A stretch of 37,768 bases of DNA from a virus, in IMG/VR virus record IMGVR_UViG_3300015373_000015, positions 1 through 37,768 of that record. One strand, written 5' to 3'. Positions 2,092 through 31,502 of this stretch are shown here, piece by piece. The notes beneath the pieces were generated by a model. The model did not search any database. It was given only the letters and a program-made list of their open reading frames with translations, and was not told the DNA's origin. Position numbers and translations under genes: made by a program. Numbering within the stretch: position 1 is the first letter of the stretch; each line of letters begins with the position of its first letter.

Positions 2092-3018
2092 TTATCTTAA
2101 ACCACTTCGGCCTCGGCCTGTACTTCGAATACTTCTAGAGGGCGAGGTTCTGAAGCGGCCATTAGAAGCCATACTTGCGGCCCGTACAGGTGGCTCAACA
2201 AAGGGTGCAGTGGGCGTATTTACATGCACCGATAGGGGTAGCGCACTCATAGTCAGAACGGGCCGAACTAGGGTAGCCTTCTTATCCCTATCAATCGCTT
2301 GCGCGGCATTAACCGTAGAAGGTGTTCCTGCTGTCACACTAGTTGCGGCTGCTCGCAAGGCAAGGCTTACAGCCAGGACTCGGGATGAAGTTGTATCGGA
2401 GGGAGTTACGGTGCCCGATCCTGTCGCACCCGTAGTAGTTTGAATCTTCTCTGAGACTTGAGTTACGTGTCCCGTACCCGTCTGAGTCGCGTCATCCGAA
2501 CGTTCCGTGAAGGTGGTAACCGTAGTCGTCTGCGCTACGTCACTGATTTTTACCGATATTCCTACCGCAAGCGCATTTGGATTAGTCGTGGTAATCCCTG
2601 GCAGCGTCCAAGAGGTAGTAGCCGCTGTATCTGTAGCGGCCGGAACTGTACCCGCTTGCGTTGTGATAGCGTTCGACCACGCTAGAATCCTGGCGCTAGC
2701 AGAGTCACCAGTAGTACCAGTGGCTAGGCCAGTCCACGTCACGGTCGGAGCATCGTTGCCCGTACCGTCAGCGATACGAGAGAATACATAAATCTTCCCA
2801 CCCGAGGCGGTAGCACTTGTCACGGGGAAACCCGTCAGCAATGTCCAGCCGGTAGGAGTCGATACGGTCGCAGTATTCGAGCGTGATGCAGTAACACACA
2901 ACATTAGATCACCATTCTGAGTGGCGGCGTTCTTAGTTGGCGTTAAGTTAGTAGGAGTAACTACGCTGTTGGCTGTATAAACTGCGGTGCCAACTGCCCG
3001 AAAGGTGGGCGTAGCCAT
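2092..3018 (-). CDS. Ser/Thr/Ala-rich structural (tail-type) protein
   Basis: A 308-residue protein rich in Thr, Ser, Ala and Val, predicted all-beta. Its N-terminal 220 residues resemble phage tail or decoration domains (QNGDLMLCVTASRSN, GWTLLTGFPV), and the start is similar in style to the 680-residue protein at 16997-19039. Around residue 230 the motif TVNAAQAIDRDKKATL matches the repeat unit of the tandem-repeat protein at 14312-16105. AAGGGAG lies five bases before the ATG. The last 35 residues turn Arg/Ser-rich, unlike the rest, and a second frame there also encodes a coherent 21-residue peptide (2097-2162), so a frameshift or sequence error near the end is possible. A virion surface or tail role is inferred. 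Confidence 0.65.
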   Translation of the reverse strand: MATPTFRAVGTAVYTANSVVTPTNLTPTKNAATQNGDLMLCVTASRSNTATVSTPTGWTLLTGFPVTSATASGGKIYVFSRIADGTGNDAPTVTWTGLATGTTGDSASARILAWSNAITTQAGTVPAATDTAATTSWTLPGITTTNPNALAVGISVKISDVAQTTTVTTFTERSDDATQTGTGHVTQVSEKIQTTTGATGSGTVTPSDTTSSRVLAVSLALRAAATSVTAGTPSTVNAAQAIDRDKKATLVRPVLTMSALPLSVHVNTPTAPFVEPPVRAASMASNGRFRTSPSRSIRSTGRGRSGLR

Positions 3019-3836: not shown

Positions 3837-4871
3837 CTACGTGACGGCGAGGAAAGCCGTCTCCCAGTCCGAGCATGTATGTTCAGTTGTCCGATTATTG
3901 AGTACATACTCTCGTACATTATGGCCTATTTCTAGGCGCAATTCCTCGTTATTGATGAGGGTTTTGACGGCATGTTTAGCCTCTAGTGGATCATCTACGT
4001 GTAAACCCGTGCGACCATCACCAATATCTGGATACACAATTGGACTGGCGACGAGAGGAATACCTAAAGCGCCTGTCTCAAGCCAACGTAGATCGCTTTT
4101 AGCTCTATAAAAGAAGCTATTACCTGCTGGTGCTAGAGCTATATCAAAGTTGCATAGCACACCAGGGAATAGCTCCATTAACACAAAGGGAATGTGTACA
4201 GCCCGTTCTTGAGTTTCCTTCTTCATATCCTTTACGAAGTCTAAGCCTACGCAGAAGAAGTTAATCCGCTCATCTTCAAGCATTAATTGCTCTAGCTGGC
4301 GCACCCAGGGTAGAACATTACCCTGATGGCCTTCACCACCGGCCCAGCCTACGTGAATCCCTTCCCGTTTAGGAAGTTCCAAGTCCTTGTAACGGTATCC
4401 TTCAACTCCGTTACGACATATCCAAGAATTTTCATTGAATTTCCTATACTTATCCGCTAAGAATTGCGTCGAACAAAGCAGCCCATCAGCGGCAACCATA
4501 CAGGCCTCGTACAGTGGGAGACTAGACTTTGAGAAAGCCTTAGCCCCAGCGTGGCCTGGGATTTTGTGGACTCCATGAATGTAGTCATCGATTTCATATA
4601 GAACTTTAATTCCTTTATCTCGCCAACGATATATCTGCGCTTGCCAGTCTTTCCCAAACGCCTGTTGCAGCACAATAATTTTGTACTTTTCGTACTCCGG
4701 AGGTTCGAAGGGGTTACGGCTAAGGTCAGCAAGGATTGTGTAGTCATTTGGAGGGCCGTAACCTCCCTTCCAGTCACACCCAAGGGTTAGAGCAGGGCTT
4801 CCTGTCCTATACCAAGAGACAGCCGAATGTGTACGGCCTAGGAAAAGTACATCTTCACTACTCAGGCTCAT
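3837..4871 (-). CDS. GT4-type glycosyltransferase (GT-B fold)
   Basis: A 344-residue protein with features of GT-B glycosyltransferases of family 4. There is an N-terminal Rossmann half with KIIVLQQ and KVLYEIDDYIHG (88-100), the inter-domain strand GIHVGWAGGEGHQGN (171-185) and the C-terminal donor-site region FYRAKSDLRWLETGALGIPL (254-273), with K258 and E265 in the expected places. It lacks a signal peptide and membrane spans, so it is cytoplasmic. It would transfer a sugar from a nucleotide donor. It is the last enzyme of the glycan cluster. Its ATG lies within the tail of the zinc-ribbon gene at 4858. Confidence 0.85.
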   Translation of the reverse strand: MSLSSEDVLFLGRTHSAVSWYRTGSPALTLGCDWKGGYGPPNDYTILADLSRNPFEPPEYEKYKIIVLQQAFGKDWQAQIYRWRDKGIKVLYEIDDYIHGVHKIPGHAGAKAFSKSSLPLYEACMVAADGLLCSTQFLADKYRKFNENSWICRNGVEGYRYKDLELPKREGIHVGWAGGEGHQGNVLPWVRQLEQLMLEDERINFFCVGLDFVKDMKKETQERAVHIPFVLMELFPGVLCNFDIALAPAGNSFFYRAKSDLRWLETGALGIPLVASPIVYPDIGDGRTGLHVDDPLEAKHAVKTLINNEELRLEIGHNVREYVLNNRTTEHTCSDWETAFLAVT

Positions 4872-4992
4872 GTATTTTTACCCCGCAATTTGGGTTAGGA
4901 CATTTAGCGATCCAATACCAGCCTAACTGGCCTTCTTCCTTCTCAAAAGAGAGTATCCAGTTACATTCTTTACATTTAGGACTATGCCTCAT
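4858..4992 (-). CDS. 44-residue zinc-ribbon microprotein
   Basis: The frame from ATG 4990-4992 begins MRHSPKCKECNWILSFE, with C7-x2-C10 and C31-x4-C36 (KCPNPNCG), a small zinc ribbon. It overlaps the upstream gene end and overlaps the downstream glycosyltransferase start by 14 bases, filling what otherwise looks like a 110-base gap. Function is unknown. Similar minigenes sit at 6119-6250 and 10826-10963 in the same cluster. Confidence 0.7.
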   Translation of the reverse strand: MRHSPKCKECNWILSFEKEEGQLGWYWIAKCPNPNCGVKIHEPE

Positions 4993-5380
4993 GTTCGCCT
5001 AACTTTTTACGACAAATAGCACACACAATAGTTTTATTATCCATCTCTGTGTACGGCGTATGATTGTGTACTAGACAAATAGTTTTGGCAATCACGTTGA
5101 AAACGGCTTCATCTAGCGGTTCTGGCATCCACATTACATCGTCGTACCAGCGCCAAACTTTCCTGAGTGGAGATTTGTAGGGAAATCCTACCCGCCTCAG
5201 CGTAGCCCTCTCAGCCCTCTCGCGCTTAAGAGCTTTCTCCCAATGTGGCCTAAGCTTCTTATCAATCTCTGTAGAGATATCTCCTAGTTCCATAGAAACT
5301 TCCCGTCCAATCGAGCGGAGATAGGCTACTGGATCAGCTTCTATCCTACGTCTACGTTCGTCTAATTCATCTAGCCCCAT
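4982..5380 (-). CDS. Hypothetical protein with C-terminal Cys/His cluster
   Basis: A 132-residue protein that I do not recognise. The N-terminal two thirds are strongly charged and helical (DELDERRRRIEADPVAYLR, KALKRERAERATLRR), possibly coiled-coil. The C-terminus carries C102, H105, H107, C120 and C123 (VCAICRK), a probable zinc site. It starts inside the end of the upstream glycosyltransferase gene (10-base overlap) and its stop overlaps the zinc-ribbon minigene. It may be an accessory or scaffold of the glycan machinery; this is inferred from position alone. Confidence 0.6.
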   Translation of the reverse strand: MGLDELDERRRRIEADPVAYLRSIGREVSMELGDISTEIDKKLRPHWEKALKRERAERATLRRVGFPYKSPLRKVWRWYDDVMWMPEPLDEAVFNVIAKTICLVHNHTPYTEMDNKTIVCAICRKKLGEHEA

Positions 5381-6156
5381 TTATCTTCTCCAATCAGAGT
5401 AGGCATGTAAGCGGTGAAGTCTTTTCCTTCCCACTTCTGGCCGAAGTATAGCCAGGACTCATCAAACCATTCCGCAGCCTTTCCCTCTCTCCTACGGAAA
5501 AGTCCTTCGTGGTGAATCGCTACCGCTTCCGGTTGGTAAACGCACTTGCCGCCAGAGTGAAAGACTCGTAAACAGTAGTCCAAGTCTTCGTACCCCAGCC
5601 TAAAGTTGTCATCGTACAAGCCAACGCTTTTGAGTGTCTCATATCTAATTAGTTGTAGAGCGCCCGTTACAGGACAGACTCTTTCCTTTCTCGCCATGTT
5701 AAGTGAGCCAGGAGCAAGGCGAAAAATATGCTCCGGGCGTCGTGCAATCAAGCTGAAATAAATTCCGGCATGCTGAATTAACCCGTTCGGGAAAAGCAGA
5801 CGAGCGCCAACAACTTCAGCATCGGTGGCATCCATCTTCTCAAACCAGTCCTTACGGATGAATTCGATATCTGCGTTGACTAATACCGCGTCCTTCTTTT
5901 GGTTACGAGCCATCCGTAGCCCAAGGTTTATGGTGTCAGCAAATCCGGTGTTTTCCTTAGACGTGAATATGTAATCATCACGACGGTTTATGACAAAATC
6001 CCTAAATTCATCCCTTATATCTGGATTGGGAGAGCCGTCATCAATTACATAGACCCTGCCTGGAAAGGTACTCATTAAGCCCTGGATAGTCTTAGCTGCA
6101 TGTGAGGCATCGAACCCGTCACGCAGGTATACCGGGACTATTGCTATCGCTGTCAT
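5371..6156 (-). CDS. Family 2 glycosyltransferase (GT-A fold)
   Basis: A 261-residue GT2 enzyme. It has the N-terminal strand AIAIVPVYLR, VYVIDDGSPNP (35-45), the NTGFADTINLGLRMA nucleotide-binding segment, a metal-binding N94-A-D96 variant of the DxD motif, and the acceptor/catalytic ED pair in GYEDLDYCLRV (E190, D191). This pattern resembles rhamnosyl- and galactofuranosyl-type transferases. It is cytoplasmic, with no membrane helices. GAGGAG lies just before the ATG, inside the overlapping zinc-ribbon gene at 6119-6250. Confidence 0.85.
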   Translation of the reverse strand: MTAIAIVPVYLRDGFDASHAAKTIQGLMSTFPGRVYVIDDGSPNPDIRDEFRDFVINRRDDYIFTSKENTGFADTINLGLRMARNQKKDAVLVNADIEFIRKDWFEKMDATDAEVVGARLLFPNGLIQHAGIYFSLIARRPEHIFRLAPGSLNMARKERVCPVTGALQLIRYETLKSVGLYDDNFRLGYEDLDYCLRVFHSGGKCVYQPEAVAIHHEGLFRRREGKAAEWFDESWLYFGQKWEGKDFTAYMPTLIGEDKWG

Positions 6157-6250
6157 TTTTCTCCTCTCTCAAATCCTTAGCGCATACAACGCACTTACGC
6201 GATACGCTCCAAGCGCGGCAGTCAGGGCACCATTTCCATATCTCTCTCAT
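6119..6250 (-). CDS. 43-residue zinc-ribbon microprotein
   Basis: Starts at ATG 6248-6250, overlapping the TGA of the UDP-sugar dehydrogenase (ATGA), which is typical of translational coupling. It contains W-C8-P-D-C11 and C20-V-V-C23, a minimal zinc ribbon, followed by a charged tail. It overlaps the glycosyltransferase start by 38 bases, and its codons carry that gene's ribosome binding site. Function is unknown; it may bind a cluster enzyme or nucleic acid. Confidence 0.65.
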   Translation of the reverse strand: MREIWKWCPDCRAWSVSRKCVVCAKDLREEKNDSDSNSPGIPA

Positions 6251-7482
6251 TCGCCCAGCCTAATTACATTGACACCCTTTTTGTCAGGTATATACCTAAA
6301 TGGGTCAATCACCGTAATACCAGGCTTAAACTCGTAGGCCTTGTACCGCTCATGCTGAGTGCCGATCAAGACTACATCAAACGGCCCAGAGTCCAGCGTA
6401 TCAAGGTCCTCATAGTGGGAGACACTAGCGCCCTTCTCCTTTAGGAGATTAGCAACCAGTACTGAGGGAGAGCCTGTCTCGATATTTGTTTCGGGCTTAA
6501 AAGCCTTGCCGAGGATCAGCACACGCTTACCGTACTGTAGGCAATAGTCTGCTAGCCACTCAGCGTGGTCCTGACGAGCCATCATCAGATCGTCAAAGAA
6601 ATTGTGGCTCATGCCAATCTTGTTGGCAAGATAACTGAGTGCAATATTGTCCCGTGGATGACACCCGCCGCCGTCGCCCATACCAGCCTTCAGGTATTTG
6701 GTAGAGATAATTCTGTCGCCAGCCATGCCCAGTGCCTTATAGATATCGTCTACATTCATGTTCAGCTTGTGCGCCATTTCCCCGTAGGTATTGGCTAGCA
6801 CCGTCTTAGCGGTGATGAACGTGTTGTAGAACACCTTGATTCCCTCGGCGGTACGAACGTCAGTGACAAATAGCGGGCCGAGATTAAGGTTGAAGTACAA
6901 ATTACCTAGCTTCTCATAGCCATCACCCTTGCTATCCACCATATCGTCACGGCCCACCAAGACGAACTCAGGGTGGAGGAAATCGTGAATTACCGTGCCC
7001 ATAGCAATGAAGAATGGATTGTACACATAATGAACATTGCTTGAAAGTTCTGGCTTTATCCGGCTTTCGAACGTGCCCGGTAGACAGGTAGAAATAGTTA
7101 CTAGAGTGATCTTCTTGCCTAGTCCGTCCGCCGCCTCGCGTACCTGACGTACAGCCTTCTCTAGATACTCATAGTTGAAGTCAGCCCGATCTTCCGTGAG
7201 TTTTGTCGTGCCCTCGTACTCTGGCTCATGTGGCGTCTGTACAGCTACGAATACTATGTCGCTGCTATGTACAACGTCTGTAACGTCTGTACGCCAATTG
7301 ACTTGGGCCTTTTCCATGTACTTCTCTAGCTGCTCTTCTTGGTAGGGCACCTTCTTGCGGCCCTCGATGTACTCACGAACCTCTGGGTTCACATCTGTTC
7401 CGCACACCCGATGGCCATGTGCAGCTATGGCATATGCTACGGGCAGCCCCAATTTTCCTAATCCAATAAATCCTACGTTCAT
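6247..7482 (-). CDS. UDP-glucose/GDP-mannose dehydrogenase family protein
   Basis: A 411-residue enzyme of the nucleotide-sugar 6-dehydrogenase family, which oxidises the C6 hydroxyl of a UDP- or GDP-hexose to a carboxylate with two NAD+. Visible are the NAD-binding GFIGLGKLGLP (4-14), STCLPG (131-136), EGIKVFYNTF with K216 and N220, and the catalytic cysteine C274 in GDGGGCHPRDN, matching the family GGxCxPKD pattern. The C-terminal domain (KRVLILGKAFKPETNIETGS) is complete. The substrate cannot be told from sequence. It would feed a uronic-acid-type donor to the neighbouring glycosyltransferases. Confidence 0.85.
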   Translation of the reverse strand: MNVGFIGLGKLGLPVAYAIAAHGHRVCGTDVNPEVREYIEGRKKVPYQEEQLEKYMEKAQVNWRTDVTDVVHSSDIVFVAVQTPHEPEYEGTTKLTEDRADFNYEYLEKAVRQVREAADGLGKKITLVTISTCLPGTFESRIKPELSSNVHYVYNPFFIAMGTVIHDFLHPEFVLVGRDDMVDSKGDGYEKLGNLYFNLNLGPLFVTDVRTAEGIKVFYNTFITAKTVLANTYGEMAHKLNMNVDDIYKALGMAGDRIISTKYLKAGMGDGGGCHPRDNIALSYLANKIGMSHNFFDDLMMARQDHAEWLADYCLQYGKRVLILGKAFKPETNIETGSPSVLVANLLKEKGASVSHYEDLDTLDSGPFDVVLIGTQHERYKAYEFKPGITVIDPFRYIPDKKGVNVIRLGE

Positions 7483-8018
7483 CTATTTAATATATAGAGT
7501 CCTTTAGCTCCGTCAGAGTCCACTAGTTTAAGTTGCGGGTATTCTCTCTTCATAAGGTCTTTGGTTAGATCATCCTGTTGGTGTGCCTCGAACGGGTTCC
7601 CGTCTACCTCCCCCTGCTCGTACATATACGGCACCACAATGTATGCCTCTTCGCATTTATCCCAAATATCTTTGAGCAATTGCTTCGCTCTCGGCCGCTC
7701 TATGTGTTCGAACACATCGCCAAAGATCATGGCATCGTAATATTCAAGCTCACCACTCGCCGCTAGATCACAAATATCTTGTAAGAATACTTTTTGATAG
7801 CGGGCATCGAGCATTTCCTCTACCACATAAGGCCACCAAACCTCGCAGGCATGCATTATGTAGTCTGGAAACAAATCTCGATACTTACCCCACCCTGCTC
7901 CTACGTCCAAGATACTTTTTCCCTGCGGGAAGCGGTAGCGTAGCTTGTGCGAGATAGTATTACCGGCCCAATCATAGGTAGCCCTGTACCTATTTAACAT
8001 ATTACTGGGACTGCTCAT
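7479..8018 (-). CDS. SAM-dependent methyltransferase (class I)
   Basis: A 179-residue class I methyltransferase. Motif I is ILDVGAGWGKY (36-46), and the post-motif segment AMIFGDVFEHIERPRAKQLL carries D101 and H105, as in small-molecule or sugar methyltransferases. No DNA-methyltransferase motif (NPPY/DPPY) is present, so DNA methylation is unlikely. It overlaps both neighbours by four bases, so it belongs to the glycan operon and may methylate a sugar or the finished glycan. Confidence 0.75.
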   Translation of the reverse strand: MSSPSNMLNRYRATYDWAGNTISHKLRYRFPQGKSILDVGAGWGKYRDLFPDYIMHACEVWWPYVVEEMLDARYQKVFLQDICDLAASGELEYYDAMIFGDVFEHIERPRAKQLLKDIWDKCEEAYIVVPYMYEQGEVDGNPFEAHQQDDLTKDLMKREYPQLKLVDSDGAKGLYILNR

Positions 8019-8806
8019 TGGGCGTGCAGAGCCTCCTCCATCTTCTCGCCAGGGCGTAGGCCAGTCACGATGATGCCGCCAGGATAGTTGTCTCGGTCGT
8101 ATCCAGCCTCGGCCAACAGATCGTCTAGGACTTCGCCCATAGTCACATGCTTGTCCATTTCTGGTATGTATACGTGCGGCACGTAAGTGGCGAAGAGGAC
8201 ATCCTCGGTTACTTGTCTGGCAAGATGTTCCGGCGTAATAAAGTACCGCTTCATACTGTCGTCAGTGAGCATGATCGGCTTCTTATTCGCTATTGCTTCC
8301 TGCCAGAGAGGTACGACGGAGCCGTTCGATCCGTAGATATTACCCGAGCGGACTACCCGAGCCGGTGAACCTACGTGCGAGTTGTATCCCAGCACCAGCT
8401 TCTCCGCTAGATACTTGGTGTAACCATAAATAGATGCGGGATCACACGCTTTATCGGTAGACATATATGTAAATAAATATTCATCGTAACCTAATTGGTC
8501 ACAAGCATTTTCTAGCAACTTATGAGTCTTCACTACGTTCTGGATAACTGCTTCTCGCGGATTCTTCTCGCATTGATCTATGTGCTTCATGGCAGCTAGA
8601 TGCAGGATGTGGTTTTCGTCACCCTCGAACCTGTACTCAGAGAAGTCGCCCGTGTATATCTTAATGTTCGGGTAGTAATACTTCATCCAGGCTATCCGAT
8701 TCTCATTACGATCAATACCTACAATTTCGTTCCCTGGATATAGCTCTTTAACAAAGGCTTGTCCTGCGGTGCCAGTAATACCTGTAATTAGAAATTTCTT
8801 ATTCAT
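8015..8806 (-). CDS. NAD-dependent sugar-nucleotide epimerase/dehydratase (CapD/PseB-like SDR)
   Basis: A 263-residue extended SDR. It has the NAD motif GITGTAG (9-15), HLAAMKHIDQCEKNPREAV, STDKA (116-120), Y127-x3-K131, and the C-terminal GLRPGEKMEEAL signature of the polysaccharide biosynthesis (CapD/PseB/FlaA1) group, many of which are UDP-GlcNAc 4,6-dehydratases. The S-T-D-K tetrad supports dehydratase rather than simple epimerase activity. It is somewhat shorter than the usual 320-340 residues. It would make a deoxy-keto sugar for the glycan cluster. Confidence 0.8.
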   Translation of the reverse strand: MNKKFLITGITGTAGQAFVKELYPGNEIVGIDRNENRIAWMKYYYPNIKIYTGDFSEYRFEGDENHILHLAAMKHIDQCEKNPREAVIQNVVKTHKLLENACDQLGYDEYLFTYMSTDKACDPASIYGYTKYLAEKLVLGYNSHVGSPARVVRSGNIYGSNGSVVPLWQEAIANKKPIMLTDDSMKRYFITPEHLARQVTEDVLFATYVPHVYIPEMDKHVTMGEVLDDLLAEAGYDRDNYPGGIIVTGLRPGEKMEEALHAQ

Positions 8807-10209
8807 GGGGCTGGTCCTGGTCCGGTATATCCTAACTCTGCTCGTTTGATTTCAAGTTTGTACGCCATCGGGCAGTCGGGATGATAGCGAAACGCAGCAC
8901 ACTTGACGGCAGGACGCTTTCCCTCAGCCAGCGTCTTCCATCCTCCTAACCACTTACTATCCCGAGGATTATGCCGGTAGTGATACATGACATCCTCGAT
9001 GTACTCTTCAGTGCGAAGCCACTTCTTCATTGCTCTGGCCCACTGTACATCTTCTGGCTGACCTTTCCGTGGCTTAAAGGTTTCTAGCATCGCTTTCTCT
9101 TTGCGAACGGGATTAAGGTGGCTGACGTTGCGGTAAAAACCGTGCCCATCTTCATCCCACTTGTCGTACTTAAGAGAGTGGAAGGTCGGCTTAAGCTGTC
9201 TATCGTTTAGATAGGCCTGCATTCGCCAGCCCACATAATCAGGCTTGCTCTCGATGGCCTTGAGAATCTTCTCCACGTAATACGGAGGCACGATGTCGTC
9301 GTCGTCAATGAAGCAGATGTACTCGCCCCTAGCCTCTTCTACCAACGCCTGCCTGATGTTCGCTAGCGGCTGCTCCCCGTTATTCCAGTAAGCAAGTATC
9401 TCTACCTGATTCTCAAATTCCTTAGTTTGTGGACAGAGAGTACGCTCCACTAACTGCTTGAACTGCGGGGCACGCTCCACAATGGTTGCTATCAATATGG
9501 ATAGCTTGGGTGATTGGCCGGTCGCCTTCTCTATAGCCATACGTAATGCAAAAGCCTCCTGATCGCGTTCCCACTCCATTTCGGGGCTGTAGTACAGACC
9601 TTCCGGGTCTTCCTGCTGGTGCCTGTAGAGCCGGTCGCGGGTTGTCTCATCCTGGCCGGTCTTGCCCCATATGTAGTGTATGTGATCTGTCTTTACCTGC
9701 GGAAGATACTCACCAATTTCGAGCTTATCCGCCACATCATTGAACCACGTATCATTGTAATCAGAAACGAAATAGGGCGGAACAAAACGCCCAGTAACGT
9801 CCGTCCAATTCTTATGAACAAAACCATGAGTACCGAAAACCTGCTGCCTACCAGTGGGAGCCATATCATCGCCCCATACAAAAGCAATTTTCCCAGGGTA
9901 TTTATCAATAGCCTCTTTGACATTCGTGTCCCATCCTCGTGATTTAAAAACAATGTCATCTCCCATGTGTCCGAAATAAGGTCCAGTAGCGTTCTTCCAG
10001 CAGATGTTCCACATCTCACTGAGCACTACCCGCTCTCCACTAACGAACTTTAGCCTAGGCAAATCGATGTTCTTGTAAGTGGAGTCGTCCTCATCTACAT
10101 ACGCAACGACCTCCACATCCTCCGGGTTGTCAGCCATCTCCATCGCTGAGTTGTAGAAGCGAAGGAACTCCTTGCGGCGCTTTCTAGTAGGTACAAGCAG
10201 ACTAATCAT
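8803..10209 (-). CDS. Bifunctional glycosyltransferase with two GT-A domains
   Basis: A 468-residue protein with two family 2-like GT-A domains in tandem. Domain 1 (about 1-215) opens ISLLVPTRKR and has YVDEDDS and GHMGDDIVF. Domain 2 (about 236-440) opens LSILIATIVERAPQ and has YICFIDDDDIVPPYYVEKI, a clear DxD-type metal site. No membrane spans are present. The two active sites could add two sugars in sequence, as in dual-domain capsule polymerases. ATGA-type overlap with the dehydratase gene and 8-base overlap with the next transferase place it in the same operon. Confidence 0.8.
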   Translation of the reverse strand: MISLLVPTRKRRKEFLRFYNSAMEMADNPEDVEVVAYVDEDDSTYKNIDLPRLKFVSGERVVLSEMWNICWKNATGPYFGHMGDDIVFKSRGWDTNVKEAIDKYPGKIAFVWGDDMAPTGRQQVFGTHGFVHKNWTDVTGRFVPPYFVSDYNDTWFNDVADKLEIGEYLPQVKTDHIHYIWGKTGQDETTRDRLYRHQQEDPEGLYYSPEMEWERDQEAFALRMAIEKATGQSPKLSILIATIVERAPQFKQLVERTLCPQTKEFENQVEILAYWNNGEQPLANIRQALVEEARGEYICFIDDDDIVPPYYVEKILKAIESKPDYVGWRMQAYLNDRQLKPTFHSLKYDKWDEDGHGFYRNVSHLNPVRKEKAMLETFKPRKGQPEDVQWARAMKKWLRTEEYIEDVMYHYRHNPRDSKWLGGWKTLAEGKRPAVKCAAFRYHPDCPMAYKLEIKRAELGYTGPGPAP

Positions 10210-10801
10210 GTGTACCTACCAAGTAATCAACATGCCTTGAAATGTAAAGTTCGTGGCCCTTGTCACGAAGTTCGCGTAGTAATTCTATGTCTTCATGTAA
10301 ATTCTTGGTCGTGTCCGTATCGCTTACAACCTCCTCCTTCAAGAATTTTGGTTTAATCCTTGCGCGTAATGCGTAAGAAATGCCCACCAAACCTTGAGAA
10401 ATTGTGGGGATTTGTTCCCGAGGCAGTATCCCATACTTAGGATGTAGCATACGAAATAGGATTATGTCTGCTGAGGGGTAGTCTTCTACATGCTGTTTAA
10501 GATGTTCTACGTAATGGGGGTCCAACGTATCATCATCGTCTACAAACGCGACCCACTCGCTATCAGCCTTCTCCATTCCGTAATTACGTAGAAGACCCGC
10601 TGAACCCTTAATGTCGGGTACTAATAGGCTGGTCTTACCGTAAGCAGATACGGCTGTAAATGCCTTATCACTTAGGAGACTGCCGTTGTCTAAGACAATG
10701 AGAGCCTCCCAATCATCATCGGTCTGATTGCCTAGAGATTCAAGCGTATCCCAGAGAGAATCCCGGCCCAGCGTAGGGATTATGAAGCTGACAAATGGCA
10801 T
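10202..10801 (-). CDS. Family 2 glycosyltransferase
   Basis: A compact 199-residue GT2 enzyme: VSFIIPTLGRDSL (4-16), ALIVLDNGS, GSAGLLRNYGMEKADSEW, then VAFVDDDDTLDP with the metal-binding DDDD at 88-91. It is close to the minimal catalytic GT-A size and lacks an extended acceptor domain. It is the first enzyme of the glycan cluster in transcription order. The ATG has only a weak ribosome binding site. Confidence 0.8.
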   Translation of the reverse strand: MPFVSFIIPTLGRDSLWDTLESLGNQTDDDWEALIVLDNGSLLSDKAFTAVSAYGKTSLLVPDIKGSAGLLRNYGMEKADSEWVAFVDDDDTLDPHYVEHLKQHVEDYPSADIILFRMLHPKYGILPREQIPTISQGLVGISYALRARIKPKFLKEEVVSDTDTTKNLHEDIELLRELRDKGHELYISRHVDYLVGTHD

Positions 10802-10825
10802 CAGCCGAGAGGATATCAGATAATA

Positions 10826-10963
10826 CTAGCCGCCGCAGCAGGTTTCGATAACTTGCTTACAGTTATCACACTGCGTGTGTCCTGCTACCTCAATACGATA
10901 GCAATACTGGCTGCAAAATGGACAGAATTCACGGCCGTCCTGCGGGTCCGGAGCATCATACAT
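10826..10963 (-). CDS. 45-residue zinc-ribbon microprotein
   Basis: ATG 10961-10963 overlaps the TAA of the upstream gene (TAATG). The protein has C14-P-F-C17, C32-D-N-C35 and a terminal C42-C43-G-G, a classical small zinc ribbon with the strand YCYRIEVAG between the knuckles. Function is unknown. It heads the glycan cluster, and other zinc minigenes recur between its enzymes. Confidence 0.75.
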   Translation of the reverse strand: MYDAPDPQDGREFCPFCSQYCYRIEVAGHTQCDNCKQVIETCCGG

Positions 10964-11220
10964 TAGTAAGCACCCGGCCCAACAGTTACGCCCTCAAACT
11001 CAGACTCGACACGCTTCTTAGCAATGAGAGTAGCCCTACATATAGACTTGCAGCGTTCCATGATGTTCTTATCTGGATTAGATACATCACTAGAGGCCGT
11101 AACCTCTGCACCGAATACTACCGTAGCGATTCCTCTTACGCCTTCTTCAGTCTCAATAACTAGCGCAATCGGTAGGCGACCAAGTTCAATAGCCTCCCAG
11201 TAGGAATCAGCAGCACTCAT
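10963..11220 (-). CDS. Hypothetical 85-residue protein
   Basis: ATG 11220 overlaps the protease stop (TAATG); the longer open frame upstream lies inside the protease gene and is rejected. The protein looks like a small alpha/beta domain, with LPIALVIETEEGVRGIATVV near the start and a helical KNIMERCKSICRATLIAKKR later. Two cysteines (MERCKSIC) are too few for a full zinc site. No family is recognised. Coupling to the papain-like protease hints at a partner or inhibitor, but nothing in the sequence proves it. Confidence 0.65.
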   Translation of the reverse strand: MSAADSYWEAIELGRLPIALVIETEEGVRGIATVVFGAEVTASSDVSNPDKNIMERCKSICRATLIAKKRVESEFEGVTVGPGAY

Positions 11221-11921
11221 TACGGATAGCGCCTTCCTACTGGTATGCAAGCCTCTCCACCTTCCAGCAGTAGCCGCTCCATATCCGCAATGCGAACCTT
11301 GACATTTCCGTAGCGGCCCCAGCTTGGACCCCACGAATTGTGTAGAAGCACATATTCGGGCTTCCCCTCCGAGTCTACGACGACTCCGTAGGCAAGAATG
11401 GCATGGCCACCGACAGTATCTCCACCAATATTGAGGAAGAAATCGTCGTCAGGGTCATACATATTGTCTCGCCACTCAATACCCAGCACAACCGGACCCT
11501 GGTGAGAAAGCGCGAGAACTAGATCGTCAATGGTGTAAGCCCAGCGGTACTCCATGAAGAAGCCCCGGCTTTGCATGACCTTTGCGCCTGCGAGTACGCT
11601 AGTGCCGTCGTAATCCTCGCCATCCCACTCGTCTACCTTCTTAGCGGCGTTGTAAACGCTCTGACCATCATCATAATCAAGGTTAGGAACGATTACTGGC
11701 TGTGCCATAGCTTCGTGGGTCCATGAGAACCCTACGCAAGCACTCGTCTGTCCCTGATCGAGCGTGTATGGCACATGCCAGTAGCGAGTGCGTGGGGAGC
11801 GTAGTTCAACCTCTTTTAATAGGGGCGCAATGCTGAACGATCTACTGCGTTCATCGTATTCTTTAAGTCGCCCTAAACGGGGGTCATCAACAGTAGACCC
11901 GTCCCGCAGATTTACGCTCAT
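11220..11921 (-). CDS. Papain-like (C1 family) cysteine protease
   Basis: A 233-residue protein with a full papain catalytic set. Q56 of DQGQTSACVG is the oxyanion glutamine and C62 the nucleophile, with the same six-residue spacing as papain Q19 and C25. H173 lies in VGGHAILAYG, and N195 in LLHNSWGPSWGRYG. No signal peptide or long inhibitory propeptide is obvious; the first 45 residues could be a short pro-region. It lies between the lysis genes and the glycan cluster. It could mature virion proteins, act during lysis or cut a host protein. Confidence 0.85.
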   Translation of the reverse strand: MSVNLRDGSTVDDPRLGRLKEYDERSRSFSIAPLLKEVELRSPRTRYWHVPYTLDQGQTSACVGFSWTHEAMAQPVIVPNLDYDDGQSVYNAAKKVDEWDGEDYDGTSVLAGAKVMQSRGFFMEYRWAYTIDDLVLALSHQGPVVLGIEWRDNMYDPDDDFFLNIGGDTVGGHAILAYGVVVDSEGKPEYVLLHNSWGPSWGRYGNVKVRIADMERLLLEGGEACIPVGRRYP

Positions 11922-12058
11922 TTCTTCTTCTTTCTCCTCTTACCCCACCGGGCAAAGGCGGCTTTACGAGAACCAGCAGCAGACTTTCGATGGTTTATTT
12001 TCTTATGACCGCGCTTTGCTGCGGCTGACTTCTTTTTGCCTTTAGTTCTATTAGCCAT
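11918..12058 (-). CDS. 46-residue basic microprotein
   Basis: The frame from ATG 12056-12058 begins MANRTKGKKKSAAAKRGHKK, includes SAAGSRKAAFARWGKRR and ends KKKK. It overlaps the endolysin stop by eight bases and the protease start by four (ATGA). Its last codons (AGG AGA AAG AAG) double as the purine-rich ribosome binding site of the protease gene. Composition resembles histone H1/HU-tail-like or ribosomal peptides. A DNA-binding role is inferred. Confidence 0.7.
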   Translation of the reverse strand: MANRTKGKKKSAAAKRGHKKINHRKSAAGSRKAAFARWGKRRKKKK

Positions 12059-12842
12059 AATTGTAAGACGGAACACCGAAGGCGTAACGTACTACACGCC
12101 CTTCATGTCTATGTAGACTAGACCCCATGGCATAAAACGCTGCCCAATCACGATAGGTGAGAACTGGCTGGCCGTCATCGAAGGTAACTCCTTCTGGCCA
12201 CCATGGATCGCTCGGCTTAGTATCGCTCAACTGGAAGCCCTTACCTAGGCGCTCCGCAGCGTAGGGCCAGTTATGGTACAGGCACGCTAGTCGCCATGCA
12301 TACTCAGTCGGATTAGGTTTATTCTGAACGCCGGGGAATTTAGCCTTATCCGTGAAGGCATCGTAACGCTTACGAGTATCCTCGGCAAACTTATTGATCT
12401 GAACCTCGGAGTCAAAAGCCTTTTTAACCTCGGCCTCGTTCCACGGGGGACCATAGACACGGCGCTGTACATAACCGCAATCTACACCTCCGGGCTGGGA
12501 CCAGTTGACGGCTCCGATACGGAACCCGGCCTCCGCCTCAACTAAACCATAGATAAGCCCGCTAGGAAGCTGATAAAGAGCTTTAGCGGTACGGCCAAAA
12601 CCGTCAGCCAGCTTGGTCTGCGTCTTTAGACCCGCAACACCATCCACATATAGACCTTTGGACTGCTGATACTGCTTTACAGCGACATCAGTAGAGTCAC
12701 CAAAATTACCATCAACAACTAGTTCAGGCTCATAGCCTGTCTCGTTGAGGGCGACCTGAAGGGCCGCAACTCCAACACCATCAGGATCGCCCTTTTTGTA
12801 TTCATATATAGTTTTACTCGGTGGGACAGAAAATATCCCCAT
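12051..12842 (-). CDS. Endolysin: peptidoglycan-binding domain plus lysozyme-like domain
   Basis: A 263-residue protein. Residues 17-78 form a PG_binding_1 repeat (ALQVALNETGY, VDGNFGDSTDVAVKQYQQ, VDGVAGLKTQTKL). The remainder starts LPSGLIYGLVEAEAGFRIGA, resembling the first helix of transglycosylase/lysozyme domains with a candidate catalytic glutamate at E102 or E104, followed by GGVDCGYVQRRV. It would cleave host peptidoglycan glycan strands. It lies directly downstream of the holin gene. No signal peptide is present, so export depends on the holin. Confidence 0.75.
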   Translation of the reverse strand: MGIFSVPPSKTIYEYKKGDPDGVGVAALQVALNETGYEPELVVDGNFGDSTDVAVKQYQQSKGLYVDGVAGLKTQTKLADGFGRTAKALYQLPSGLIYGLVEAEAGFRIGAVNWSQPGGVDCGYVQRRVYGPPWNEAEVKKAFDSEVQINKFAEDTRKRYDAFTDKAKFPGVQNKPNPTEYAWRLACLYHNWPYAAERLGKGFQLSDTKPSDPWWPEGVTFDDGQPVLTYRDWAAFYAMGSSLHRHEGRVVRYAFGVPSYNYG

Positions 12843-13781: not shown

Positions 13782-14312
13782 TTAAATTATTCCTAAGTCC
13801 ATTAATTCTAGAATTTCACGGTCTTCTTGTAAAACTTGACTATAGTGTAGCGCAACCATCCGAGTGCCTGGGTACGCAAATGCTACATTTCGGGTGAATT
13901 TAACCTCTCCTGCAATCGATGCCTCGAACTGAGTAACCGCAGGAACAACTCTCAGCCTTGCTGGTACCTCTATCGAGAATTCACGGGTAAATCGGGCCTT
14001 AACCTCGAATTCTTCCTCAAATTCGGTACCCGTAATGGGTCCGAAAATGCCTACCGGACGCGACCCGCCAACAGTTACATCGATTTCTACCGGCGTAGCA
14101 GGCACCTTGGTCCAAGTAAGGGCCATAGCGGTGTTTAGCTCCGAATACTCGAACAGGCGGGCCTGTCGCTGGGCCTCATCAACCTCGGTAACGAACTGAA
14201 TTGCTACCGATTTGGCGTAAAACAGTGGACGAGCGAGGTCTAGCTCTGAATACTCGACAATTCGAGACTGACCGACCGCTGTATTTAGCTCAGATGCGGG
14301 GTTAATGTCCAC
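13782..14312 (-). CDS. Putative tail/virion protein sharing repeat motifs
   Basis: A 176-residue protein starting at GTG 14312, overlapping the TAG of the repeat protein (TAGTG). Motifs ASELNTAVG, EYSELDLARPL and EYSELNTAMAL are diverged versions of the T-E-x-D-x-A-x-x-L unit in the large repeat protein next to it. The centre (EFEEEFEVKARFTREFSIEV) is beta-rich. It is probably part of the same surface structure. No catalytic motif is seen. Confidence 0.6.
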   Translation of the reverse strand: MDINPASELNTAVGQSRIVEYSELDLARPLFYAKSVAIQFVTEVDEAQRQARLFEYSELNTAMALTWTKVPATPVEIDVTVGGSRPVGIFGPITGTEFEEEFEVKARFTREFSIEVPARLRVVPAVTQFEASIAGEVKFTRNVAFAYPGTRMVALHYSQVLQEDREILELMDLGII

Positions 14313-16105: not shown

Positions 16106-16108
16106 GGC

Positions 16109-16996
16109 TTAACCCATCTTGGTCAAGCGAAGTACAGAATCAGCCATAATCGAAGTCGATGTAGCCGTTTCTGAGGCGTGATAAAGCTCCAAGTTTCCGC
16201 CAACAGTACAAACCAAAAGTCCGCTGATCTGAATGAGGACATCGGCAGCAGTCGTATCTACACCTGCAATCGCGATCATCGTTGCAGCGGTGCTTTTGGC
16301 TCGCTGAGCCATACCTGCAATAACCGTAGGCGCGGCAGTCACGTCCTGATCCATAACGCCCGTGGAGTCAAGCGTACCCTGTGTGATGAACTGCTCAGTC
16401 GCCATAAAGGAAGTCACTGTTCCGGAATGGTTGACAGATAGTTTAGGTCCCACGGTCGCTGTTGCGGATTGGAAGCGTAAGAAATACTCAAAAATCCATG
16501 TACCAGGCCCACAAGCGAGGTCCATACCAGTGACCTTAGCCGCAGTAGTAGTGGAGTTAGAAACTGTTGAAGCTAAACGGGATACGGTGTACTGGCCGAT
16601 ACCAATTGGGTTAGTCTTTTCCAGGCCGTTAGCATCAATAACTCGCATTGGCACGTTTTCACGCCATGACGCCCGTTCGCCCGCAGCAAGAGGGAAGCTA
16701 TCAACAATTGCCGTGCTCGTACCATCAGTAATTTGCAGCGTAAGAGTGTTAGACGTAGAGGCATGAATATTCGACATATTAATCATCTTAATACGCCGAA
16801 CTTTTCCGCCCGTAGGTGAGCCTACAACGTCCGTAGTAGTCGCTGTACTAATCTTGGATATCAAGCGACCAGACGTAACACGATCAGTAGCAGGAGAACC
16901 GGCAGGGTCATAGTCATACCACTCTGCATACACATCCACATTTGCAGTAGTAGTTGTAACTATTTGTACTTTATCTGAAGCGCCAGTTAAAAGCAT
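16109..16996 (-). CDS. Structural (minor tail-type) protein
   Basis: A 295-residue protein rich in Thr, Ser, Ala and Val with no cysteine cluster or catalytic motif. Two similar beta-rich halves are suggested: 1-145 (ADVYAEWYDYDPAGS-like strands, SNTLTLQITDGTS) and 146-295 (GTWIFEYFLRFQSATATVG, LLVCTVGGNLELYHAS). Such proteins are common among tail-tip and fibre genes. It begins immediately after the stop of the LamG-type gene with no spacer. Function is inferred from context. Confidence 0.6.
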   Translation of the reverse strand: MLLTGASDKVQIVTTTTANVDVYAEWYDYDPAGSPATDRVTSGRLISKISTATTTDVVGSPTGGKVRRIKMINMSNIHASTSNTLTLQITDGTSTAIVDSFPLAAGERASWRENVPMRVIDANGLEKTNPIGIGQYTVSRLASTVSNSTTTAAKVTGMDLACGPGTWIFEYFLRFQSATATVGPKLSVNHSGTVTSFMATEQFITQGTLDSTGVMDQDVTAAPTVIAGMAQRAKSTAATMIAIAGVDTTAADVLIQISGLLVCTVGGNLELYHASETATSTSIMADSVLRLTKMG

Positions 16997-19039: not shown

Positions 19040-19042
19040 TTC

Positions 19043-19402: not shown

Positions 19403-19427
19403 AATTAATCCTTAATTGTTTAAACGC

Positions 19428-19901: not shown

Positions 19902-19910
19902 AAGTTAACA

Positions 19911-20631: not shown

Positions 20632-21485
20632 TAAATATCCTCCTCGTGTACTTCGGTAATAACACCAGTTTTCTTGTCTCGAATAAATTTCTTTGACCGA
20701 GGAGGTACCTGCACTGTGACTTGAGGAGTGACGTGGATCACCGGAGGTGGCTGATTTCGCTGAGCGTCAGCCATCGCCATTAAAGCCTGTGCCATCTGCA
20801 CTTGGCCTTGACTCATCTCCTCTTCAATTACATTGAGTTCCAGCATCTCAGGAACATTTTCGATCCCCAGTGGCTCCTCATCAGAAGCAGCAAGTTTTTC
20901 TCTGCGCGCGGCAGCCGACTCCAAAGTTTGTTGATCGACACGACGGCCCAAGAAGCGATCAATGGCCTTCGCTGGATGTCCAAGCGCTTCTACTCGATGG
21001 GCAACATCGGCGATCTGATTTGGGTCAAGTTCTGCCAGCAGCCCCTTAATGTGGCCGCGAGAACTGGTAACCCGAACACCCTTATTAGCAAACCCAGTAC
21101 CGCGCAGGCGAGTATCAATGGCGTCCACAAGGTCATTCATGCGCTGTTGCTGCACCATATTGAGGAATCCTTCTGCGTCAACCTGACCAGGGTTATCCAC
21201 CTGACCCTTGAGCCATTTCTGGATTTCCTCTACACCAGTCTGCCCCTTCAGAGTACGAGCGGCAAGGCGCACCTTATCAACCATACGAGCGAACGCCATA
21301 GCGTCCGCGTTAGGTGGCTTAGGCGCTCCACGGCCAGAGCCTTGTCCGCCGCCCTGTCCAAACTTTCCAGAACGAGTGTCGTGGCGTGGGTTTCCTGACT
21401 TCTGACTTGGGGCTACTCGGCTGACTCCTGATCCTGGGACGTTGGCTAGGAGAACTTCCTCGCCGTTAAAGTCGAATTGCTTCAT
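20631..21485 (-). CDS. Head-region protein (possible scaffold or minor head protein)
   Basis: A 284-residue protein in the slot right after the portal-MuF gene. It has a disordered Gly/Ser/Arg N-terminus (GKFGQGGGQGSGRGAPKPP), a helical centre (EIQKWLKGQVDNPGQVDAEG, then ELDPNQIADVAHRVEALG), and a C-terminal beta tail, IHVTPQVTVQVPPRSKKFIR, that resembles the ends of phage minor head proteins. ATG 21485 is chosen over TTG 21491 because AAGAAGG lies six bases upstream. It overlaps the portal gene by 20 bases. Role is inferred from position. Confidence 0.5.
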   Translation of the reverse strand: MKQFDFNGEEVLLANVPGSGVSRVAPSQKSGNPRHDTRSGKFGQGGGQGSGRGAPKPPNADAMAFARMVDKVRLAARTLKGQTGVEEIQKWLKGQVDNPGQVDAEGFLNMVQQQRMNDLVDAIDTRLRGTGFANKGVRVTSSRGHIKGLLAELDPNQIADVAHRVEALGHPAKAIDRFLGRRVDQQTLESAAARREKLAASDEEPLGIENVPEMLELNVIEEEMSQGQVQMAQALMAMADAQRNQPPPVIHVTPQVTVQVPPRSKKFIRDKKTGVITEVHEEDI

Positions 21486-23961
21486 CAACAACCTTCTTCA
21501 GAATCTTGCGGCGAGCCTCATCAGTCACAATGCGATTGATAGTTAGCTCCACACGCTCTTCATCCCAATTGGCAGCACCCTCAATGTCTGCAAACTGAAT
21601 CGAAAGCTCTGCTGGCACTGGCCTCCAAGCCAGAGTGCCGTTAGGATGTTCGTCTTCTTTCCAGGCCGCAGAGATCGTGAAAATTTCTCCATCTCGATCT
21701 TCACAGCCCTGGTCGGTGTCTCCGTGAATAGCGTCTAGAGCCTGTACTCTACGTAGCCCGCTTTCCTCCGCAGCCAGTAACGTGCCCGCGTTGAACACAT
21801 CTCGGGTTTCAGTACGAGCAATACGGCTGGCCTTCCAGGTTGGGAAATCGGTGAAGTGCTCTCGCACTCTCTTCGCCAATTCCTGCTTCGAGGCGACGCC
21901 TTCCCGAAGTTGCGACGCAACAAATTTCTGGACCTCTTCTCGCGTAGTATTGGCAATTAGAGGAATAACTTTCTCAAGGTGATCGTTGACCCACGCCTCA
22001 ATAGTGTCATCATCAGGCATCTTGCCGCCCTTAATGTCCTTCACCTCACCACGAGCAGCCCGCTTCATAATCGCTTTCAAAATTTCTTTGGTTCGGCGAA
22101 TAGCACCTGGCCAACGAGACGAGTCCTTCCACTTTTTCAATAGGTCTGTGGCCTTCGCAAGCTCAACTATTTCGCCAGAACCAGAAAGCTCGACAGACTC
22201 AGAAGATTTCTCAATTGCAATAGCAGCCTGCTCATATTCGTCTAGTTCTAGCTGACGGTACACATTATGTAGCTGGCGGGCGAAGCCCTTAATAGCTTTG
22301 TCCTCATAATGCTTCGTGTTGGGAAGATTTTCAACAAAATCCGTGCCAGCCGAAAGATGTACTGTGCCTTCGGAGCCACCAGTTTCGTAATAAGCACTGA
22401 ATCCTGCTGGCGTGATGGTTACGCCAGTACCCCCAGCAGTAGACGGTGCCGTTACCGGAGCTTGAGCCGCAGCCGCAGCCTCTTCAATTTGACGCTGACG
22501 ACGTTGCTGCACCTCAAAGGAGGCAAGCGGAATTCCTGCGTCATCAAGCAGCGCCTCAAGGTCAGCGAGCTTTAGAAGCTCGGCAGAACCGGCCTCCTGC
22601 TGGCCAATAAGCTGAATTACCTGCGTAGTGAAGTCTAAGTCCCTATCAGCAAAGCCCCCAATAACTAGCTTCGCGTTACCGCCCTGCTCTACGTAGTCTG
22701 CATAGTTAACTGCGAGCCATTGCGGGATTACCCAGCGGTTAATGTGGTCCTCAATCTGCTGAGAGAGGACAGCCTGGGACTCGATGAAGGAGGAGCCAAG
22801 CTCGGCGGCAACATTTCTGGACGAGGTACCTCCGCCGCCTTCGATGAAGGCAAGCTCAGGAATCCACAGAGAACGAAGTTTTTGGACCTGCATGTCCTCA
22901 AGAGGATTATCGAACTGGGAGAAATCTACGGCCTCTTGGACGTACTCGAATTCCCACTTACGGATAGTTCCGCGACCGTTGATGTCTTCCCACGGCTCGG
23001 AAGGCAGAGCCAGAGAGCCACCGGAGCGCACACGGTCTGCAATTGCCAGCGCGTAGTCTGCATAAGTTACTTCTTGTCCTTGATCGTCAATGAATGAACC
23101 TTCAGGGTGGAAAATCTTGGTGCTCGGATCGCCCTTTCGCTCGAAAGCTCGGTCACGAATCGTCCAGATAAACCAGTAGCTCCACCAATAGCGGTACGCA
23201 TAACCAAGACGCGGGTAGCCCCACAGTCGGTTGAAGTTAGCTTCACGCTCGTTGGTGACCCACAGCGAGTGGTACAAATCGATGTTGAAAGTATCCGTCT
23301 TTGTGGCCGTAGACTGAATTCCTGCAATAGCGTTAGCGCCCTCAGTGGAGTACGCAATACCATTAAATTCTCCTTGGCCCGTCCACATTGGTTCCACAAT
23401 GTCTGGGGGTAGAGGCACAAAGGGCTTCCAACCAATCGCTGCAATATTTCCTTGATCCCATACCGGCTTCTCGGTCTGCTCACCTGTCTCTGGATTTGTT
23501 TCGATGAACGTCGCTGGTATCTGTTCCTTCTCTACAAACCGCTTTGCAATAGCTTGGAAACCGTAGTCGAGTGAGTTCAGGTAAGCAGACACGAGTGGGC
23601 CGTATATTTCACGCAGATCATGGTCGAGGTGCGCTGCAATCTGAGCGTTAGCTCCTTCGGGTCCTCTGGCGTCAATGTGCCACTTAGCCCTCATGTGAGG
23701 GGTCTTAATGAAAGACAAACCGAATGCCAGCATCGGGTCACGACGCATAGCATGTAGCTTCGAGAGGGGTATCCTCTCAACTTCGAACGGCGATCCTAGG
23801 GTGTCGGCTGCTTGTCGCCAACCGCCGAAAAGCTGGGTCTGTGCCTGGACAGATGGTGCCTGTTCTTTGGAGGCAACAGAAGCGCGAATCCGGGCAGCCT
23901 CTTCTGGCGAGATAGACCCGTTATCAACTTGACCAGCTTTCCTAATACCAGTAGGAGCCAA
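21466..23961 (-). CDS. Portal protein fused to a MuF-type head morphogenesis domain
   Basis: An 831-residue fusion. The first 500 residues are portal-like: PMLAFGLSFIKTPHMRAKWH, LNSLDYGFQAIAKRF, WWSYWFIWTIRDRAFERKG and the helical QLIGQQEAGSAELLKLADL. A linker rich in Ala/Gln/Thr-Gly (490-540) leads to a MuF domain at the C-terminus, with ARTETRDVFNAGTLLAAEES (about 716-735) and D-x-HGDTDQGCEDRDGEIF and EHPNGTL after it. The portal forms the DNA entry ring, and MuF domains are minor head proteins injected or bound at the portal. The gene follows the terminase, as expected. Confidence 0.8.
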   Translation of the reverse strand: MAPTGIRKAGQVDNGSISPEEAARIRASVASKEQAPSVQAQTQLFGGWRQAADTLGSPFEVERIPLSKLHAMRRDPMLAFGLSFIKTPHMRAKWHIDARGPEGANAQIAAHLDHDLREIYGPLVSAYLNSLDYGFQAIAKRFVEKEQIPATFIETNPETGEQTEKPVWDQGNIAAIGWKPFVPLPPDIVEPMWTGQGEFNGIAYSTEGANAIAGIQSTATKTDTFNIDLYHSLWVTNEREANFNRLWGYPRLGYAYRYWWSYWFIWTIRDRAFERKGDPSTKIFHPEGSFIDDQGQEVTYADYALAIADRVRSGGSLALPSEPWEDINGRGTIRKWEFEYVQEAVDFSQFDNPLEDMQVQKLRSLWIPELAFIEGGGGTSSRNVAAELGSSFIESQAVLSQQIEDHINRWVIPQWLAVNYADYVEQGGNAKLVIGGFADRDLDFTTQVIQLIGQQEAGSAELLKLADLEALLDDAGIPLASFEVQQRRQRQIEEAAAAAQAPVTAPSTAGGTGVTITPAGFSAYYETGGSEGTVHLSAGTDFVENLPNTKHYEDKAIKGFARQLHNVYRQLELDEYEQAAIAIEKSSESVELSGSGEIVELAKATDLLKKWKDSSRWPGAIRRTKEILKAIMKRAARGEVKDIKGGKMPDDDTIEAWVNDHLEKVIPLIANTTREEVQKFVASQLREGVASKQELAKRVREHFTDFPTWKASRIARTETRDVFNAGTLLAAEESGLRRVQALDAIHGDTDQGCEDRDGEIFTISAAWKEDEHPNGTLAWRPVPAELSIQFADIEGAANWDEERVELTINRIVTDEARRKILKKVVDEAIRL

Positions 23962-23964
23962 AAT

Positions 23965-26405: not shown

Positions 26406-26420
26406 AGCAGAGATTTTAGC

Positions 26421-27571: not shown

Positions 27572-27647
27572 CTTTATCTACATATTCCAGCCAAACTAAA
27601 GCTACGATAATAATTGCCAACGCGGCAAATATATCACCGGCGTCCAT
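27552..27647 (-). CDS. 31-residue single-span membrane micropeptide
   Basis: ATG 27645-27647, with AGGAGG about nine bases upstream, opens MDAGDIFAALAIIIVALVWL followed by the charged EYVDKDESSRS tail. That is one hydrophobic helix with acidic residues on both sides. It bridges an apparent 62-base gap, overlapping the upstream gene by 14 bases and ruvC-like gene by 20. The strong ribosome binding site argues for a real gene. Role unknown. Confidence 0.6.
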   Translation of the reverse strand: MDAGDIFAALAIIIVALVWLEYVDKDESSRS

Positions 27648-31482: not shown

Positions 31483-31502
31483 GTTGCATAAAGGATAGCG
31501 TA

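Follow-up and report, generated by a model that had tools for sequence, protein, structure and literature searches.

The virus record IMGVR_UViG_3300015373_000015, a stretch of 37768 bases which is apparently a fragment and is here called the window over its whole length, carries a genuine sugar island of eight open reading frames (ORFs), whose products probably glycosylate virion proteins. These ORFs lie co-oriented and head to tail on the minus strand, from 10801 down to 3837, and are listed in that order in Table 1. They encode glycosyltransferases (GTs), a short-chain dehydrogenase/reductase (SDR), a methyltransferase (MT) and an enzyme resembling UDP-glucose dehydrogenase (UGDH), together with one small protein. 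A first-pass annotation of this DNA had named seven of the genes, and family matches and catalytic motifs recover all seven on the minus strand; the eighth ORF (4982-5380, 132 aa) had been missed. The end of the island had been set at 10963, which is the end of an unsupported ORF overlapping the papain-like gene. The overlaps described between neighbouring genes exist at five junctions, by 4-10 nt each (10202/10209, 8803/8806, 8015/8018, 7479/7482 and 5371/5380), but the two remaining junctions have spacers of 90 nt (6157-6246) and 110 nt (4872-4981). The gap to the upstream gene is 418 nt, and with a GC content of 0.45-0.50 against about 0.50, the cassette is not set apart. As the annotation had stated, flippase, polymerase and membrane protein are missing: none of the cassette proteins has a convincing transmembrane segment by crude hydropathy, and none matches flippase, polymerase or lipid-linked initiating transferase families.

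Table 1. Cassette genes in their order along the minus strand, followed by marker genes elsewhere in the window.
Feature	Coordinates	Strand	Matches and remarks
GT-A (GT2-type) glycosyltransferase, 199 aa	10202..10801	-	PF00535 8e-15, phrog_14775
Two-domain glycosyltransferase, 468 aa (GT468)	8803..10209	-	N domain about 1-228: phrog_14945 on 2-191; C domain about 229-468: phrog_14775 on 234-420
PseB/CapD-like SDR, UDP-sugar 4,6-dehydratase type, 263 aa	8015..8806	-	PF02719 1e-46; PDB 2gn4 (UDP-GlcNAc C6 dehydratase) 1e-25
Class I methyltransferase, 179 aa	7479..8018	-	DVGAG motif; PDB 3cc8 0.005
UGDH-like nucleotide-sugar dehydrogenase, atypical subfamily (Lys10 / no Glu141 / CHPRD), 411 aa	6247..7482	-	PF03721/PF00984, phrog_9148 9e-81
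GT2-type glycosyltransferase, 261 aa	5371..6156	-	PF00535 1e-4; rhamnosyltransferase subfamily TIGR01556 7e-9, below cut-off
Small ORF, 132 aa, no family	4982..5380	-	Overlaps 261-aa GT by 10 nt; no match
GT-B (Glyco_trans_1_2) glycosyltransferase, 344 aa	3837..4871	-	PF13524 above cut-off; phrog_7162 4e-32
Papain-family peptidase, upstream of cassette, possibly associated	11220..11921	-	PF00112, phrog_16701 3e-52; Cys, His, Asn apparently in place
Endolysin-like protein (peptidoglycan-binding domain), late/lysis marker	12051..12842	-	PF01471 3e-13; several endolysin PHROGs
Portal fused to Mu F-like head morphogenesis domain, context marker	21466..23961	-	Portal_Mu, Phage_Mu_F, phrog_2662; resembles Gordonia phage portals

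Relatives of the cassette were collected starting from the GT C domain, the methyltransferase and the UGDH of the window. The order GT–GT(N)–GT(C)–SDR–MT–UGDH, in which GT(N) and GT(C) correspond to the two halves of GT468, recurs in four other viral contigs: 3300028831_000280 (loci L051, L165 and L174), 3300036859_000580 (L175 and L166, at its two ends), 3300048890_000142 (L169) and 3300005294_000123 (L056, where the contig end truncates the cassette). Since such same-order homologues exist, the cassette ORFs are not chance ORFs, and the conservation of gene order at only 38-48% amino acid identity to the window implies selection. In these contigs, the large terminase gene comes immediately after UGDH, and portal genes come next in L056, L166 and L169. 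Homologues of the methyltransferase (39-41%) stand directly before UGDH in L051, L056, L166 and L169, and the halves of GT468 are separate genes in L051, L169 and L175 (41-47% identity), the window gene being a fusion. The 199-aa GT has a weak homologue at the same position in L169 and L175, and distant homologues of the 344-aa GT-B occur in the L169 and L166 phages away from their cassettes (G003:C1:51464-51772, G004:C1:53790-54623). The SDR of the same-order contigs is of the epimerase/dehydratase type (PF01370) and only about 25% identical to the PF02719 type of the window, so that this step may differ there.

This conservation also bears on whether the island is mere cargo, or decaying and devoid of present function. 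Erosion does happen, as mycobacteriophages of cluster J keep only a C-terminal relic of UGDH and in locus L049 a fragment of UGDH is joined to GT(N). However, all eight window ORFs are intact and tightly packed, their catalytic motifs are kept, and the gene order has persisted despite the low sequence identity. We therefore give very little credence to this explanation.

The dehydrogenase shares its overall architecture with canonical UDP-glucose, GDP-mannose and UDP-ManNAc dehydrogenases. Its AlphaFold2 model (mean predicted local distance difference test 90.6) is closest to UGDH structures, with template modelling scores of 0.83-0.86 (0.83 to 3vtf), and the nearest solved structures are about 22-26% identical. 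The catalytic cysteine claimed in the annotation is present as Cys274, accompanied by Lys216, Asn220 and Asp278. Across the subfamily of 150 members (window included), the Rossmann/NAD motif is kept and the equivalents of Cys260, Lys204, Asn208, Asp264, Thr118 and Glu201 are found in every member, so that the nucleophile set of canonical nucleoside diphosphate (NDP)-sugar dehydrogenases is complete in 150 of 150. At other positions, the subfamily departs from the canonical enzymes. The equivalent of Glu141, a residue of the catalytic loop, is present in none of the 150 (Phe in 85, Tyr in 57, Gln in 6, Ala in 2), the position of Tyr10 is occupied by Lys in 148 and Asn in 2, and that of Glu145 by Met in 144 and Gln in 6. 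Arg327 is lost as well; the window enzyme has Thr336 there, with Phe157 for Glu141 and Lys10 for Tyr10. The catalytic Cys is followed by His, by Arg at +3 and by Asp at +4 (CHPRD). These counts are partly biased by the patterns with which the relatives were gathered (including CHPRDNI or GFIGLGKL for viral loci, YNP[YF][LF]IA[MQ] or K[VI][FT]YNT[FY]I for genomes), and independent of them are only the missing Glu141 in the viral set and Lys10 and CHPRD in the set from genomes. In a tree, the clade of the window enzyme (support 100/99) stands apart from five sampled canonical phage enzymes. Members of the subfamily occur in phages, SAR11, Azospirillum, Patescibacteria and Thaumarchaeota.

In a published comparison of 229 NDP-sugar dehydrogenases, 18 residues, Glu141 among them, are invariant, Tyr10 is conserved in 98% and Arg327 in 99%, and Tyr10 has been tied to the final hydrolysis of the thioester (PMC4794789). 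Laboratory mutants appear in the titles of two PDB entries, namely BceC Y10K (2y0d) and human E161Q with a trapped thiohemiacetal (3khu). The natural subfamily has fixed substitutions that resemble these engineered ones, human E161 being the residue that corresponds to Glu141. Either Lys10 and His275 compensate for these changes, or the product of the dehydrogenase differs. The annotation had proposed a modified uronic or deoxy sugar: the dehydrogenase and dehydratase genes for this are present, but a uronic acid product is not established, because the subfamily lacks residues which characterised enzymes share without exception or at about 98-99%. It is conceivable, though rather unlikely in our view, that the subfamily stops short of the normal thioester hydrolysis to the free uronic acid and instead releases a C6 aldehyde or passes the thioester to an amine (yielding a uronamide), with GT(N) as the dedicated transferase and phages placing the sugar on their virions.

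A NadE-like (ATP/ammonia) gene lies beside or near UGDH-like genes in 15-16 viral loci (L005, L006, L007, L008, L162 and about a dozen more) in islands of cyanophages, pelagiphages and huge phages, where uronamide synthesis is possible. As a model for the cassette, NadE-type uronamide synthesis was rejected, NadE being found neither in the window nor in window-like cassettes.

Genes of the GT(N) family neighbour the dehydrogenase subfamily more often than any others, in phages as well as in cellular genomes (43 loci). GT(N) directly adjoins UGDH in 31 of the 45 loci that have GT(N), against 7.6 expected and a maximum of 17 in 5000 shuffles; this ratio overstates independence, because the shuffles ignore relatedness (several loci are SAR11 genomes), although the phyla involved are diverse. 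Within L049, a UGDH gene lacking its last about 55 residues and a GT(N) gene headed by a 40-residue C-terminal piece of UGDH lie apart from each other (5973-6815 and 8682-9755).

For GT468 as a whole, the top Foldseek match is the chondroitin polymerase K4CP. The global superposition is weak and the model of the C domain has low confidence, and the fold match is suggestive of transfer from two donors. DxD/EDx motifs are present in the GT-A domains of the window. The glycan of up to five linkages suggested earlier corresponds to the five GT domains that can indeed be counted, but the figure equals nothing other than this number. In the SDR, the catalytic STDKA and YGYTK (YxxxK) motifs align with PDB 2gn4, and the Polysacc_synt_2 domain occurs together with the DK and YxxxK signatures by which PseB/CapD dehydratases are recognised. 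Against the PseB equivalog TIGR03589 the protein scores 113.6 bits, under the cut-off of 407.75, and its substrate is for this reason not assignable.

The context of the module in other phages points to the virion. The window dehydrogenase's own clade includes L009, L011, L012, L013, L022 and L029. The capsid, adaptor and major tail proteins of L011 match those of mycobacteriophage Pound (E 1e-182, 1e-53 and 4e-165), which makes it a relative of cluster J (Omegavirus). Its GT(N), GT(C) and UGDH, 44%, 39% and 48% identical to the window proteins, are set between the major capsid and head-tail adaptor genes. The major head gene of L009 and L029 is followed by GTs, GT(N) and UGDH; GT(N) and UGDH lie ahead of the head-tail adaptor and major tail genes in L022, and between portal and tail genes in L013. 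A recognised virion gene was found no more than 6 kb away in at least 12 of 80 viral loci; the small number of query proteins makes this a minimum. In Pound and Optimus, the same slot between capsid and adaptor holds five GTs, a methyltransferase, a kinase and a 100-aa protein, which in Pound matches the C-terminus of UGDH. This free-standing fragment of cluster J (L177:6121-6423, L182:6121-6423) is annotated as UDP-glucose dehydrogenase or hypothetical, and the gene is full-length in L011. Che8 gp109 has a close homologue in Pound gp20 (1e-105).

Taken with the soluble nature of the enzymes and the homology of GTs to those of phages whose virions have been reported as glycosylated, this placement makes glycosylation of virion proteins with phage-made donor sugars the best supported explanation, and we consider it likely, the acceptor being putative. 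It is favoured over DNA or the host surface because other phages have conserved the position of the GT(N)/UGDH module amid genes for packaging, capsid and tail. The annotation's cytoplasmic target, a capsid or tail protein or DNA bases, is thus supported by the relatives as regards location and virion glycosylation, but nothing favours DNA. For substrates, linkages, acceptor and biological benefit we infer the following course. Expressed late and acting in the cytoplasm, the cassette would make an activated modified sugar and attach a short glycan to virion proteins. The UGDH-like enzyme would oxidise a host NDP-hexose at C6, and a UDP-HexNAc could be turned into a 4-keto-6-deoxy sugar by the PseB/CapD-like SDR. 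Since its adjacency to UGDH is conserved, GT(N) presumably transfers the dehydrogenase product. The remaining GTs may lengthen the chain, and the methyltransferase may cap or modify the glycan. The acceptor would be a head, tail or fibre protein, modified before or during assembly, and the benefit could be shielding of the particle or tuning of adsorption.

Some observations weigh against this explanation. In the window itself, the cassette adjoins lysis genes and lies outside the head operon. A scan for promoters and terminators gave no signal above chance, late expression being judged from position. Furthermore, many other relatives of the dehydrogenase belong to bacterial or archaeal loci and to GT-rich islands of large phages, settings in which a surface role is likely.

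This last point leads to the alternative that the cassette remodels a surface or secreted glycan of the host in the manner of seroconverting phages, to exclude superinfection or mask receptors. Bacterial and archaeal loci with other glycan genes do contain homologues of the GT(N)/UGDH pair, and O-antigen conversion GTs are known in phages (phrog_22739, a weak match). The cassette, however, has no membrane-bound or lipid-carrier GT, flippase, polymerase or transmembrane segment, and the position of its relatives with packaging, capsid and tail genes would be odd for an early or lysogenic surface function, so that we regard such a role as unlikely. Glycosylation of phage DNA bases, as in T4 or in the phosphoglucuronate-bearing DNA of the UGDH-carrying Bacillus phage SP-15, is highly improbable in our view. 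SP-15 is believed to employ UGDH and GTs within a gene cluster for base hypermodification (PMC5977210; L161), and the window has a deoxynucleoside monophosphate (dNMP) kinase and a dNMP phosphatase PHROG. Nevertheless, the SP-15 enzyme keeps the canonical Glu and falls outside the window subfamily, the cassette is distant from the replication genes, and the 37.8 kb hold no recognisable thymidylate-synthase-like or hydroxymethylase gene, an absence that counts for little in an incomplete record.

The gene order of the window runs from primase, single-stranded DNA-binding protein, dNMP kinase, dNMP phosphatase, PolA, a RecA-like protein and a nuclease to head genes; structural proteins, either with a LamG domain or rich in Ser/Thr, come next, ahead of the lysis genes and finally the cassette. 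The island had been described as lying between lysis and small late genes; endolysin-like genes are indeed upstream, but a papain-family peptidase intervenes and the downstream gene is Holliday-junction-resolvase-like (phrog_2002). A homologue of the peptidase also stands beside GT/UGDH genes in L049. The dNMP phosphatase PHROG adjoins the dNMP kinase and PolA (34906-36140), and such nucleotide-pool genes could accompany modified DNA. A 597-aa protein of degenerate repeats (KTLGVAT..NAAQTLS) with 18% Thr is encoded at 14312-16105 and is probably a fibre-like virion protein. The Ser/Thr-rich ORFs at 2092-3018 (31% S+T) and 14312-16105 (25%) were considered as acceptors and rejected, as such a composition is ordinary for fibre proteins. 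Tandem-repeat and Rfam scans of the window returned only a tRNA, the tRNA-Lys (TTT) at 2-74 on the opposite strand, which lies at the very end of the record and may be an attachment site or mark an assembly break.

Actinophage GT matches and the Gordonia-like portal together with the gene content suggest a putative actinobacterial host, although the GC content is 50% and the portal match only 23% identical. In an Actinomycetes contig from a metagenome-assembled genome (L135), the UGDH subfamily and a virion-gene match share a locus, which is possibly a prophage. A small portal-based prophage search in 24 genomes of its class gave no match and is uninformative about the host. At the DNA level, no phage record searched matched the window, and single-protein scans retrieved nothing or only the same virus (L002, 99.9% identity over 14181-33961, with the cassette outside).

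Among known phage systems, one close parallel is the capsid-connector insert of cluster J, which is rich in GTs and also includes a protease-like gene and a methyltransferase (Pope et al. 2013, PMC3706429). Omega gp16, a GT with two catalytic domains that was compared with chondroitin synthase and is split in LittleE (PMC3706429), resembles GT468 by description, and L011 holds homologues of the window's GT(N), GT(C) and UGDH in that very slot. In contrast, the sampled cluster J isolates have only the 100-aa UGDH fragment and no SDR annotated in the insert, whereas the window has a full-length UGDH and an SDR. The window also differs from the Omegavirus pattern, GT and methyltransferase genes between major capsid and head-tail adaptor, in that its cassette follows the lysis genes. 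Whether the GTs of the insert act on viral or host targets was left open (Pope et al. 2013, PMC3706429). Since several phage lineages carry the module next to genes for packaging, capsid and tail, a virion target becomes the testable default for this question, and cluster J phages, culturable on M. smegmatis, offer a laboratory system.

Glycosylated virions have been reported for Che8, Corndog and Myrna (Freeman et al. 2023, as relayed in PMC12363180 and PMC11256854), and PMC12363180 names Che8 gp110 and Corndog gp38 as GTs essential for it. These phages share with the window soluble, phage-encoded GTs; the C domain of GT468 is 29% identical to Che8 gp108, with no direct match to gp110 or Corndog gp38. 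The Che8 cluster comprises three adjacent GTs without sugar-nucleotide enzymes, to which the window adds a dehydrogenase, a dehydratase and a methyltransferase. In the Actinoplanes phage phiAsp2, pas33-35 encode a GT, a methyltransferase-type protein and a GT just after the tail genes, again without UGDH or dehydratase, and the C domain is 33% identical to Pas33. Microbacterium phages of cluster EC (Quhwah, Merry, Sunny) have two GT genes and a gene annotated as UDP-glucose dehydrogenase (PMC7302621, PMC12614000), and no dehydratase is reported in that gene group. Their enzyme is not close to the window subfamily, as the listed and tallied matches of the window UGDH include no Microbacterium phage. 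Sugar islands of cyanophages and pelagiphages (Bellamy, HTVC008M) do contain the same UGDH subfamily, with GTs and methyltransferases, and differ from the window in the NadE-like amidating enzyme adjoining or near UGDH.

A limited search in a partial library found no description of the window cassette or of the dehydrogenase subfamily. The cassette suggests that some phages encode sugar-nucleotide synthesis as well as transferases. Because the subfamily departs at residues tied to the second half-reaction of the dehydrogenase family and the nearest structures are so distant, a simple enzyme assay could reveal new chemistry. The cassette is thus known in kind, as GT clusters are found in actinophages, and its novelty lies in its greater completeness: it brings its own genes for sugar synthesis, among them a dehydrogenase of an uncharacterised subfamily.

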